DNA of 64,000 nucleotides from Profundicola chukchiensis. Lineage in GTDB: Bacteria > Bacteroidota > Bacteroidia > Flavobacteriales > Weeksellaceae. The DNA lies in NCBI RefSeq assembly GCF_029664245.1, contig NZ_JANAIE010000002.1, positions 62,001 to 126,000 on the forward strand. Direction: 5' to 3'. Position numbers and translations under genes: made by a program. This document shows, piece by piece, positions 18,863-23,514 of this stretch (positions are counted from its first letter, which is position 1; the number at the start of each line of letters is the position of its first letter). The notes under the pieces are model-generated. The model did not search any database. It was not told the origin of the DNA and worked only from the letters and a program-made list of their open reading frames with translations.

Positions 18863-20290
18863 CTATAAGGCAATGCTCAAACCAGCATTTACAGCTAATA
18901 AATAAGGTTGAACTTCATCATTGGCAGTAACCGTGTTAATCATATATCTCACTTGTGGCTCTACATTCACTGAAACCTTTTCCGTAATTGCATAATCTAA
19001 TTTAACACCGGCGTTAGCTGAAAATGAAACCGATTTCATATTGGTGGACTCAGCAAAAAGCCTGTTTTGTTCAGATAAATAAACATCGTTTTTATTCAAA
19101 AACAAAGTACTTAATCCACCAGTTGCCGCCATATTCATTTTTTTATTATCCGTCAATTGATATTCCACCTCTACAGGTACTTCAATAAATTGAAGCTCAT
19201 GAGAAATACCTTCTCTCATTCTCTTTCCTTCGTCTAATTCATTGGCAGCATAAGTAGATGTTGCTTGTCGGTGATCCGATAAATCAACGCCTAAATTAGA
19301 GTGACTCTTTAAATTATAACGAATCTGACCGTCCATTGTATTCACGCTTAACGGAACATCGTATGTTTCTTGCTGTAAATCAATCACGCCAAGTCCTGCT
19401 CTCATCTTCAAGCGATCATTTACTCTATAAGAAGCTTTTGCACCATAAGAAGTAGCTAATTTATTTTCAATTTTTAATGGATTATACTCCGGTGAAATTA
19501 AACTCGCCTCGTTCAAACTTCCTAAGTAAGCAGTACCCGCATAAGGAGAAATCTCAAAACTTCTTCTCTTTCTTGGCTTTACCTCTTCTACCTCATTTTC
19601 TTTCTCATCCTCTCCAAACAAACTTAAATCTAATGCATTAGAAGCATGTAAGTCATTATTCCCATTACTTTCTTGATTAACTTTTTTATTTTGATTTCTA
19701 AAAGGCGAAACCAGAGCTGTAAGCGTATTTACTCTTCGTTTAGGGAAGATATCATAGCTTTCATTCTTAACTTTATTTTCGTCTGAAACCTCAGATCCCG
19801 ACCATAAATTCGAAAAGAAGTTCATGACTTTATTTCCTCTTAAAACAGTATTTGATTTATCCTTCGCAGGCACTTGATTTCTCATCGAATTTGCATCGAT
19901 ATTATTTGCATAACCCTTATTCGGAACATCAGAGTTAGTCCAATCATATAAACCATTATCCATTCTTGTTTCTACTCCATTTACAGAATCTTGCGTGTTT
20001 TTATCTTCAACGACTGTTGCTTGTTGACTAGATTTAACAATAGTTTTTTCTGTACTCTGAATACTAGAATTAGAATCCTCATTTACATCAAAAGGATTGG
20101 TCAACCAAATACCCACAGCCACAAAAGCAGGAATCAAAATAGCTGCTATACTTAGCCATTTAGCCCATGGTTTAGCCTTTGGTTTTTCATTTTGCAAAGC
20201 AGATGAAATATTTTCCCATGCCATTGGAGGGGGTTGCATTTCATGGTTTTGCAAGCTTTCTTTTATTTTATTTTCAAATTTATCTTGCAT
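18863..20290 (-). CDS. Anti-sigma-like membrane protein with outer-membrane barrel domain
   Basis: A 475-residue protein that begins one base after the ECF sigma stop codon. Its cytoplasmic start (NKIKESLQNHEMQPPPMAWENISSAL) resembles the sigma-binding segment of Bacteroidota anti-sigma factors. One membrane helix lies at about 45-65 (WLSIAAILIPAFVAVGIWL), then a 180-residue Asn/Ser-rich linker, then from about 248 a PorT/OmpW-like beta-barrel of alternating hydrophobic strands ending in SIAL. If read correctly, one chain would span the inner membrane and periplasm and insert in the outer membrane, carrying a signal to the sigma factor. This is inferred from layout; no biochemical role is shown. 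Confidence 0.75.
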   Translation of the reverse strand: MQDKFENKIKESLQNHEMQPPPMAWENISSALQNEKPKAKPWAKWLSIAAILIPAFVAVGIWLTNPFDVNEDSNSSIQSTEKTIVKSSQQATVVEDKNTQDSVNGVETRMDNGLYDWTNSDVPNKGYANNIDANSMRNQVPAKDKSNTVLRGNKVMNFFSNLWSGSEVSDENKVKNESYDIFPKRRVNTLTALVSPFRNQNKKVNQESNGNNDLHASNALDLSLFGEDEKENEVEEVKPRKRRSFEISPYAGTAYLGSLNEASLISPEYNPLKIENKLATSYGAKASYRVNDRLKMRAGLGVIDLQQETYDVPLSVNTMDGQIRYNLKSHSNLGVDLSDHRQATSTYAANELDEGKRMREGISHELQFIEVPVEVEYQLTDNKKMNMAATGGLSTLFLNKNDVYLSEQNRLFAESTNMKSVSFSANAGVKLDYAITEKVSVNVEPQVRYMINTVTANDEVQPYLLAVNAGLSIAL

Positions 20291-20291
20291 T

Positions 20292-20849
20292 TTAGGCTAT
20301 ATTGGTTTTAACATATTTTTTTTTTAGCTCTTTCCTTAGCCAAGCTTTGGCACGAGAAAGATTTGATTTAGAAGTCCCTACAGAAATATTTAAAGATTCA
20401 GCAATCTCTGCATGCGTATAATTTTCTACAACATACATATTGAAAACTAATCTATATTGATCTGGTAGTTCTTGTATCGTTGAAATCAACTCATCATTAG
20501 AATAAGGCAATTCAACTTCTTCCTCTTCTAATTCTTGTTCTTGTTCTTGGTAAATCTGTGGATTATCCGTTACAATCGTCAAACGTTTACTCCTGAATTT
20601 ATCCATACATTTATTGACCATTATTCGTCTTAGCCAACCTTCAAAAGAACCATCACCATTATAGGAATCTATCTTCTGAAAAGCTTTGATAAAAGCCTCC
20701 TGAAAGGTATCCTGCGCATCATCTCTACAATGCGAATAGCGCATACACACAGCGAACATTACAGACGAAAATCGTTCATAAATCTCGCTTTGCGCTTTCG
20801 GATCGTTCCGTTTGCAGCGTTCAATCAGTATGTTAAGATCGGGTTCCAG
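20292..20849 (-). CDS. ECF sigma factor with a probable CTG start
   Basis: An RNA polymerase sigma-70 factor of the extracytoplasmic group. Region 2 (DDAQDTFQEAFIKAFQKI, GSFEGWLRRIMVNKCMDKFR) and region 4 (LPDQYRLVFNMYVVENYTHAEIAESLNISVGTSKSNLSRAK) are intact. The first ATG (20759) would delete the conserved start of region 2. The frame stays open upstream and encodes the expected LIERCKRNDPKAQSEIYERF, back to an in-frame TGA at 20855-20853, without any ATG, GTG or TTG. CTG at 20849 gives a 185-residue protein of normal length; ATA or ATT further in are alternatives. The lipoprotein stop lies 17 nt upstream, so translational coupling is plausible. Confidence 0.85.
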   Translation of the reverse strand: MEPDLNILIERCKRNDPKAQSEIYERFSSVMFAVCMRYSHCRDDAQDTFQEAFIKAFQKIDSYNGDGSFEGWLRRIMVNKCMDKFRSKRLTIVTDNPQIYQEQEQELEEEEVELPYSNDELISTIQELPDQYRLVFNMYVVENYTHAEIAESLNISVGTSKSNLSRAKAWLRKELKKKYVKTNIA

Positions 20850-20866
20850 ATATCAGAATTCAATGA

Positions 20867-21277
20867 TTAACGAATATAAATATCTTTTGTCAAGAAAACA
20901 TCTTCATTGGTTTCCTCATCTACCCCAGCCCAGAATCTAAAGTTGTACCATCCAGTGGATTGTGGCATAAAGTAAAAAGATGGACTAATCACAGTCTCCT
21001 CACCACATTCAGAATTGTCAAATCTCACAAACCAAGCCGTCACCGTTCTTTCATTTCCTACAATATCATATCCATGCGTCTGAAAATTCTCACATCCCTC
21101 ATACAGTTTTGTGTAAGTTTTAATCTCAACACGCTGATTCAGCATCGCCGTATCTGGCATAGAAATACTGTCAATTCCGCGTCCAACATAGTGAAAACTA
21201 GATTTTGCATCGTCATCGTTACAAGACCATAAGGTCAGCGCCGTGAATAAAATACCAATGATCCAAAAGTTTCTCAT
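20867..21277 (-). CDS. Small lipoprotein upstream of the ECF sigma gene
   Basis: A 136-residue lipoprotein: MRNFWIIGILFTALTLWSC ends in a lipobox Cys at position 19, followed by NDDD, a signal often seen on Bacteroidota lipoproteins. The body has two further cysteines (YEGCENF, NSECGEE) that could form a disulfide. It resembles a small beta-sandwich with no recognised family. Position at the head of the sigma/anti-sigma operon suggests a periplasmic or surface component of the same signalling unit, but this is inferred from order only. Confidence 0.75.
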   Translation of the reverse strand: MRNFWIIGILFTALTLWSCNDDDAKSSFHYVGRGIDSISMPDTAMLNQRVEIKTYTKLYEGCENFQTHGYDIVGNERTVTAWFVRFDNSECGEETVISPSFYFMPQSTGWYNFRFWAGVDEETNEDVFLTKDIYIR

Positions 21278-21675: not shown

Positions 21676-23514
21676 TTAAGTATTCATACTTACTAAAAAT
21701 TCTTCGTTTGATTTAGTCATTTGCATCTGCTTCTTAATGAATTCCATAGCTTCTACAGGATTCATATCTGCCATGTGATTTCTAAGAACCCACATACGTT
21801 TAGAAGTTGGTTCATCTAATAATAAATCATCACGTCTAGTAGAAGAAGAAACCAAGTCGATAGCAGGGAATACACGCTTGTTAGCAATCTTACGATCTAA
21901 TTGTAACTCCATGTTACCCGTACCTTTAAATTCCTCAAAGATTACCTCATCCATTTTAGAACCTGTATCAATTAATGCAGTTGCAATAATTGTTAATGAT
22001 CCACCACCTTCAATATTTCTAGCAGCTCCAAAGAATCTTTTTGGTTTGTGTAATGCATTCGCGTCAACACCACCCGATAAGATTTTACCTGATGCAGGTG
22101 CAACTGTATTATAAGCTCTTGCCAAACGAGTGATTGAATCTAATAAAATCACCACATCATGTCCACACTCTACTAATCTCTTAGCTTTAGAAAGTACAAT
22201 ATTTGCAACTTTCACGTGGCGTTCTGCTGGCTCATCAAAAGTTGAAGCAACTACTTCACCTTTCACATTTCTTTGCATATCTGTCACCTCCTCTGGACGC
22301 TCATCAATCAATAAGATGATTTGATAAACCTCTGGATGATTAGCCGCAATAGAGTTAGCAATGTCTTTCATCAACATTGTTTTACCCGTTTTGGGTTGAG
22401 CTACAATCATTCCACGTTGACCTTTACCAATAGGAGCAAATAAATCTACAATACGAGTAGAAACTGTACTTTGCTTACCTGCAATATGGAAACGCTCTTG
22501 TGGGAACAATGGAGTTAAGTGTTCAAAAGAAACACGATCTCTAACGTAGCTAGGTTCGCGACCATTGATTTCAACAATCTTCAATAAAGGGAAATATTTT
22601 TCTCCTTCTTTTGGTGGACGAACTTCTCCAACAACTGTATCACCTGTTTTTAAACCAAAAAGTCTAATTTGTGATTGAGAAACATAAACATCATCTGGAG
22701 ATGGCAAGTAATTAAAGTCAGATGACCTTAAGAAACCATAACCTTCATTCATCATATCCAAAACACCCTCTGAACGAATAATACCATCAAACTCGTAGTT
22801 TGGATCTAGATATTTATTCTTGTGTTTGTTTTGACTTTGGGGCGCATTACTTTTATTTCCATCAACATCATTTCCTTTTTGGTTCTGATTTGATTGGTTT
22901 CTGTTATCGTTGCGCTGATTCCCTTTCTGATTGTTGTGCTTAGGCTTGTTTTGCTGATTCTGATTAGAATTTCTGTTTTGGTTATTCTGGTTAGAATCTT
23001 TGTCTTTGTTCTGATGCTTATTGTTATTAGCATCTTTATCATGGCCTTGATTCTTGTTATCATGATCTTGGTTCTTGTTCTGAACATTGTCTTTGTTAGA
23101 ACCCTGATTCTTTTGATTAGAATGTTGGCTATGTGTATTTTTTCTTTGAGGTTGAGCTTTTTGTTGTTTGTTTGGCTCTCTCTCTTTTTGATCTTTATTC
23201 TTATGAGAAGGGTGATCAGCCTGTGATTTATTCTCGCTATCGTTAGAATTTTGATCTTTGTTAGCCTGCGATTTAGAGTTATGTTTTTTAGAATTATTAT
23301 CCTTTTTACTTTGTTTAGCTTCTTGTACTCTTTTATTGGTAGGCTCTGCAGCAGAAACGTTTTTAATTGCAGAAGGATTAGCTGCTTGATGATCAAGGAT
23401 AAGGTAGATAAGTTCTTGTTTCTTTAAAGGTTGAAAACCTTTTAAACCAAAATCTTTAGCAATTCCTCGAAGATCGGCAACTTTCTTGCCTTTCAATTCA
23501 TTTAAATCGAACAT
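21676..23514 (-). CDS. rho: Transcription termination factor Rho with long Asn/Gln/Lys-rich insert
   Basis: Hexameric RNA helicase that ends transcription. N-terminal Rho_N (about 1-48, [20 protein letters not shown]), cold-shock RNA-binding domain from about 245 ([22 protein letters not shown]) and the ATPase with P-loop VAQPKTGKT, Walker B region [16 protein letters not shown] and the LSGG.DANAL loop. Between the first two domains, about residues 52-245 are almost only N, Q, K, D, S, H: a disordered insert. Large inserts are known in Bacteroidota Rho, and one in Bacteroides thetaiotaomicron is reported to drive phase separation. At 612 residues it is about 190 longer than E. coli Rho. Confidence 0.97.

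Follow-up and report, generated by a model that had tools for sequence, protein, structure and literature searches.

The gene at 20292-20849(-) of this Profundicola chukchiensis stretch is best explained overall as encoding a Das-type sigma factor in a lipoprotein-sigma-Dma operon, started at a CTG codon, with the non-AUG start keeping the sigma factor below its anti-sigma factor. We consider this reading probable. The window, by which we mean the whole stretch of DNA that was analysed (64,000 nucleotides), holds these relevant features:

21676..23514, minus strand: gene ahead of the operon for a transcription termination factor, rho-like judging by its sequence
20867..21277, minus strand: upstream lipoprotein gene with an ATG start, a lipobox recognised by eye and no Pfam family
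20853..20855, minus strand: in-frame TGA, the upstream limit of the sigma frame
20292..20849, minus strand: Das-like ECF sigma factor gene, 185 codons from CTG plus stop TAA, assigned from Pfam, TIGR02937 and an ortholog profile against SigW
20847..20849, minus strand: CTG, the proposed start codon, aligned with CTG in three orthologs (L003, L018, L045)
20757..20759, minus strand: first standard start, an ATG at codon 31 counted from the CTG, judged not to be the real start
18863..20290, minus strand: Dma-like gene (predicted dual membrane-spanning anti-sigma architecture), whose ATG lies 1 nt after the sigma stop

The open sigma frame (20852-20292(-), with its stop TAA at 20294-20292) contains no ATG, GTG or TTG before codon 31. 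From the upstream stop, the minus-strand codons read TGA (20855-20853), TAT, CTG (20849-20847), GAA, CCC, GAT, CTT, AAC, ATA, CTG, ATT, GAA, CGC, TGC. Start rules that admit ATG, GTG and TTG yield only a 155-residue ORF from 20759. Among 44 likely window genes picked by script, it is in the sigma frame that the first standard start lies deepest, 31 codons past its upstream stop (the next-deepest are at 29 and 20 codons), and the sigma gene is the one among the 44 for which conservation of the part lost under the standard-start rule was checked. The CTG lies 17 nt from the lipoprotein stop TAA (20869-20867). Because the TGA falls between this stop and the CTG, entry into the sigma frame has to take place downstream of 20853, and within a few codons of the CTG if the product is to include the conserved N-terminus. 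A frameshift fusion of the lipoprotein to the sigma factor upstream of 20855 was ruled out, since it would need readthrough of the TGA. The position of the start is well supported, and we infer that translation initiates at CTG 20849 itself.

The protein read from the CTG matches Pfam Sigma70_r2 (PF04542; residues 23-89, 1.3e-16) and Sigma70_r4_2 (PF08281; residues 120-171, 6.5e-17). It carries only these Sigma-70 region 2 and region 4 domains, the arrangement that defines an ECF sigma factor. TIGR02937 gave 115 bits against a cut-off of 42.9, and TIGR02985 and NF058625 matched below their cut-offs. In a profile of 18 orthologs, position 1 aligns with residue 1 of SigW (5wuq; E 7.5e-29). An AlphaFold2 model computed from 18 sequences (mean pLDDT 82) has high-confidence helices at 3-13 and 17-38, with block pLDDT values of 86, 96, 95 and 91 over residues 1-40. 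Codons 2-30 are under purifying selection: for L002 and L003, pS is 0.91, pN 0.29 and pN/pS 0.32 over this segment, and 0.72, 0.13 and 0.18, respectively, over the rest of the gene. Eight other pairs gave pN/pS values of 0.08-0.69 for codons 2-30, the highest being that of L018 and L045. Three residues before Met31 (C12, Q20 and Y24) are invariant in the ortholog alignment. An earlier note had called the gene an ECF sigma factor that needs a non-AUG start and had favoured CTG 20849. The domain, TIGR02937 and SigW matches bear out the first claim, the lack of ATG, GTG and TTG between the TGA and codon 31 the second, and CTG 20849 emerges as the best candidate from its alignment with CTG in L003, L018 and L045 and with TTG in relatives.

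Orthologs were gathered at several depths. The search within the genus covered three genomes; G002 carries an ortholog that is 77% identical (L003), and G001 holds distant homologs only (best 31%). In the family sample, 27 of 296 genomes gave a match at 1e-40. L018 comes from G030, a genome of another genus, and L045 from Balneicella halophila. The wider sets comprised the best 80 of 571 confirmed loci and 30 loci from an order search (395 genomes, 118 matched) that also gave 40 further stretches. L001, L125 and L126 were removed beforehand as repeats of the same places. From the 190 loci with a sigma hit, we then removed 15 low-similarity paralogs by hand (in L004-L016, L043 and L044), five exact duplicates and L162, in which no Cys was found, leaving 169 distinct loci. 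Of these, 94 have the lipoprotein gene upstream and the Dma-like gene downstream, as recognised by profiles built from the family's own loci, and form the synteny set, in which the lipoprotein is present by definition. The sigma start call was anchored on the conserved Cys, with the candidate lying 8-13 codons before it. The call takes ATG, GTG or TTG first and CTG, ATT or ATC only if none of these is found, a rule that favours standard starts.

The start codon called in the 94 synteny orthologs was TTG in 58, GTG in 23, ATG in 6, CTG in 4, ATC in 2 and ATT in 1, so that 88 of the 94 have a codon other than ATG at the sigma start position. In 82 of the 94, the stretch from the in-frame stop to the conserved Cys is free of ATG, and besides the six with ATG at the position itself, six more carry an in-frame ATG 12-14 codons before the Cys. 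The flanking genes served as controls. All 94 lipoprotein genes have an ATG no more than eight codons from model position 1 (74 of them within four codons), as do 93 of 94 Dma-like genes (93 within four codons as well), and a wider ATG rule again gave 94 and 93. Going beyond the earlier note, a putative non-AUG start, usually TTG or GTG, is common to most orthologs. Outside this set, 59 loci of other Bacteroidia orders, picked from matches together with L224 and scored permissively from 25 to 7 codons ahead of the Cys, had ATG in 39, only GTG or TTG in 18 and none of these in 2; the search behind them detected family members in 330 of 395 genomes. The strong bias against ATG is therefore a feature of the lipoprotein-containing operon, in Flavobacteriales and some relatives, rather than of the sigma family at large. 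A weak upstream context as part of a throttle was not supported, as the frequency of A at -3 (0.47 for sigma vs 0.54 and 0.66 for the neighbours) and at -6 (0.44 vs 0.47 and 0.29) is not clearly below that of the neighbours. Separately, L069, a Bacteroidales MAG, has a Shine-Dalgarno-like GGAGG stretch before its TTG start, which is unusual for Bacteroidota.

Seven of the 94 synteny loci and five of the 75 others lack any ATG, GTG or TTG from the upstream stop to the Cys. These twelve are the four CTG loci (the window, L003, L018 and L045) and eight ATC/ATT loci of the Tenacibaculum lineage. The earlier note had proposed comparing start regions in related genomes, and three further genomes carry CTG in the matching column while lacking any standard start in frame. 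The ATC/ATT loci include four under Tenacibaculum titles (L055, L063, L073, L098) and four of one genus, g54 (L155, L178, L184, L186), and the tree places two of the latter with L073; in this lineage ATC or ATT sits exactly where relatives carry TTG or GTG. L143 also has ATC at the position, but with an ATG 12 codons upstream. No further CTG loci turned up in 395 genomes of the class (E up to 1e-48) or in 58 genomes related to G030 (E up to 1e-50), searches that more distant copies could escape. They yielded two new-looking places: L224, with ATG in range, and L225, which is the place of the ATC locus L186.

A quick tree of the 94 proteins, calculated with the start residue excluded, places the four CTG rows in one group (SH-aLRT 97), the exact placement of L018 and L045 being less sure because of their long end branches. 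The tree calls for one change for CTG, four for ATG versus non-ATG and thirteen for all codon states. L045 has its CTG sigma gene in a complete lipoprotein-sigma-Dma operon and is placed among Flavobacteriales rows. Given that Balneicella, which we take to belong to Bacteroidales, is of another order yet groups with the window genus, horizontal transfer of this operon is suggested. CTG makes up 2.4% of 619 Leu codons in 12 window genes, and within the four CTG sigma genes it accounts for 1 of 13, 1 of 13, 3 of 12 (L018) and 1 of 13 further Leu codons, so that there it is not always rare. Since CTG is rare in the window genes and L002 and L003 approach saturation at synonymous sites, the four CTGs can hardly be leftover identity. 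With selection acting on the residues ahead of Met31, a Leu codon under no selection is not expected to have stayed CTG. Judged from these alignments, the proposed start position and its codon class are conserved, and the non-AUG start has been retained for long.

Other accounts of the start were weighed against this reading. If the functional protein were the 155-residue form from ATG 20759, the codons upstream would go untranslated. This is the sole form that ATG/GTG/TTG rules allow, but purifying selection on codons 2-30 and the invariant residues there make so short a product unlikely. Its start would also fall inside predicted helix 17-38, the Met31 column holds Leu in 15 of 18 aligned orthologs and Met in 3, and the profile meets SigW from position 1. 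The earlier note had left room for this short form, which we regard as very improbable, and for a base-call error. That a sequencing error masks a normal start is hardly credible: the window is a single assembly, but the same CTG and the same lack of standard starts recur in G002, G030 and Balneicella.

Initiation could instead occur at one of the nearby near-cognates, ATA 20831, CTG 20828 or ATT 20825, and would give a protein 6-8 residues shorter. ATA and ATT are common to all four CTG genomes, and putative ATT and ATC starts occur in the Tenacibaculum lineage. The same ATA, however, is equally present in relatives with TTG, including all five g10 orthologs, which carry TTG at the CTG position. 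The codon corresponding to CTG 20828 is TTA, TGG and CTC in L003, L018 and L045, and it is CTG 20849 that shares a column with TTG, found there in 24 other orthologs of the family coded f1 (L019-L042). We consider a start at any of these three codons quite unlikely. Alternatively, CTG 20849 might be a drifted, tolerated codon used through reinitiation after the lipoprotein stop, with no dosage function. The short gap to that stop (17 nt here, median 18) and the many codon states, with 13 changes on the tree, would suit such drift. Drift is nevertheless not expected to avoid ATG in 88 of 94 orthologs when 187 of 188 neighbouring genes retain it, and CTG has been retained near synonymous saturation across three genera. 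We think this account rather unlikely, and favour a CTG start that serves to limit the sigma factor.

The genomic context supports assignment to the Das-Dma type. According to the available text of PMC13088901, ECF21/Das sigma factors occur only in Bacteroidota and are encoded beside a Dma family member, and Dma2 holds down Das2, a putative ECF21 sigma factor, in Bacteroides thetaiotaomicron. Here, a Dma-like gene begins 1 nt downstream of the sigma gene. As for distribution over phyla, an all-phyla scan gave 571 loci, of which the best 80, the part of the list that was covered, bear names recognised as Bacteroidota. The AlphaFold2 model of the Dma-like protein (mean pLDDT 64) has helices at 2-14 and 22-34, a helix at 41-64, a low-confidence stretch at 65-238 and strands at 245-474; the blocks of the barrel score 76-98, except two at 42 and 58. 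Foldseek matches the barrel (245-474) to OmpA/NspA folds, and the protein has an OMP_b-brl Pfam match at cut-off. From its position and sequence, helix 41-64 would fit the inner membrane. The predicted domain order is that of Dma: N-terminal domain, transmembrane helix, disordered tether and C-terminal barrel. No anti-sigma Pfam domain was found in the N-terminal part, where all 25 aligned sequences share W25 and I28. The predicted Dma anti-sigma architecture of the neighbouring gene also extends the earlier note. The likeness to the described Das-Dma systems lies in an ECF sigma gene beside a gene for a protein with an N-terminal domain, one transmembrane helix, a long disordered tether and a C-terminal barrel (PMC13088901, in the available text). 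Unlike in B. thetaiotaomicron, a lipoprotein gene precedes the sigma gene here, and the sigma-Dma partnership is putative.

The distance from the sigma stop to the Dma-like start ranges from -26 to 58 nt and is most often -4 (34 of 93 synteny loci). From the lipoprotein stop to the sigma start, the gap has a median of 18 nt and a range of 0-272 in the 94 orthologs; so short a gap permits translational coupling but does not show it. The lipoprotein matched no Pfam family above cut-off in a search with six orthologs (E up to 10), and might serve the Dma barrel as a ligand or surface partner. A gene like the presumed rho-like gene also precedes the operon in L003, as judged from compared translations.

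We propose that a poor sigma start, lying a few nucleotides past the end of the lipoprotein gene and directly ahead of the Dma-like ATG, with which overlap is frequent, would hold sigma synthesis below that of the anti-sigma factor. The sigma factor would thereby remain silent until Dma is inactivated. Discrimination against CTG, ATC and ATT would be made by IF3. We infer the low output, the shortfall of sigma relative to anti-sigma and the IF3 dependence by analogy. The closest parallel is Streptomyces sigR, for which the accessible text of PMC5472188 describes a GTC start repressed by IF3; canonical starts there let SigR exceed RsrA and leave the response unregulated, and TTG gave more SigR than ATG or GTG. 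Since TTG and GTG are canonical and not necessarily weak, the family-wide pattern need not mean low output.

Like our sigma gene with its proposed CTG, sigR has a noncanonical start kept in relatives (32 of 34 GTC, 2 GTT) and is mis-annotated under ATG/GTG/TTG-only rules; sigR is also cotranscribed and translationally coupled with its anti-sigma gene (PMC5472188, same text), as may hold for the putative pair here. Both operons combine a non-AUG sigma start with an ATG start of the anti-sigma or anti-sigma-like gene and tight junctions. In the CTG group the noncanonical start is kept in 4 genomes of one clade, the wider family having mostly TTG or GTG. The sigR system differs in belonging to Actinobacteria and in having an extensive ribosome-binding site, GTC rather than CTG, and the zinc-binding redox anti-sigma factor RsrA, as that text describes it. 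Here, by comparison, the partner is a Dma-like membrane protein, the codon is TTG, GTG, CTG, ATC or ATT depending on lineage, and the IF3 effect is putative. A second parallel is infC, which likewise starts outside ATG/GTG/TTG. The infC frame of this genome (L203; G000:C32 near 427375) begins ATT ATC GCA ATA AGA AGA, with no ATG, GTG or TTG from the upstream stop to the conserved region. The infC start region, which was resolved in 17 of 29 loci, looks alike in L202 and L204 of the same genus. Because this infC frame lacks a standard start, IF3-type discrimination plausibly exists here. Whereas infC regulates itself (PMC5472188, in the portion available), the sigma gene would be no more than an IF3 target. 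In Listeria, rsbW start mutants (ATG to ATA or ATT) led to the proposal that start strength sets the sigma/anti-sigma balance (PMC13068326, in the text at hand). There the start of the anti-sigma gene was weakened under laboratory selection, whereas here the sigma start is non-AUG over long evolution. The text of PMC6847099, a profiling paper on F. johnsoniae, puts the emphasis on upstream adenines and on structure; in its main text "UUG" appears once, and neither "AUU" nor "non-AUG" appears. The available text of PMC13088901 has no occurrence of "start codon".

A separate pattern follows the start in Flavobacteriaceae orthologs, where codons 2-7 (for example L072:2522-2539) show extreme synonymous bias right after the start in 66 loci. 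Ser2 is AGT in 32 of 33 codons (background 0.22), Leu6 is CTC in 46 of 58 (0.09) and Ile7 is ATA in 54 of 65 (0.35), all uncorrected for the relatedness of the rows. CTC ATA is retained in the ATC/ATT lineage too. This bias looks like an RNA or DNA element. One candidate was a hairpin over the start: the Cys-9 group consensus is NTGAGTTTAGAACAACTCATA, and its inverted repeat TGAGTT/AACTCA would pair the UG of the start codon. With five divergent rows left out (L065, L082, L100, L121, L194), so that 92 of 97 rows were used, 78.2% of cells were paired, compared with 29-47% for slid versions. Covariation lent no support in these rows, as shuffles reached the paired percentage in 189 of 500 cases and the covariation score in 168 of 500. 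The motif is absent from the window, L003 and L018, and the hairpin was kept out of the mechanism.

To our knowledge, well-supported natural CTG starts are few. A literature search, which did not extend to subscription papers including the 2024 Dma1 paper, found no report of a non-AUG start in a Bacteroidota or Das sigma factor. A sigma gene with an IF3-sensitive start is of a known kind, from Streptomyces; what is new is the other phylum and the other type of anti-sigma factor. It is possible, if on balance doubtful, that non-AUG starts throttle Das sigma factors below their Dma partners across Flavobacteriales. The CTG and ATC/ATT lineages would then depend on IF3, with the initiation state feeding the outer-membrane regulon, as a second, independent invention of the sigR logic.

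These findings bear on annotation and on regulation. Gene finders restricted to ATG, GTG and TTG would truncate this sigma factor within its first domain, and may do likewise with the Tenacibaculum copies. Das-Dma systems have been tied to vesicle production in Bacteroides (PMC13088901, in the available text). If the start is a dosage device, these systems would come under translational control as well, in the manner of SigR. Bacteroidota work without Shine-Dalgarno initiation, and they would then be a place to ask how the fidelity of start-codon choice serves as a regulator.
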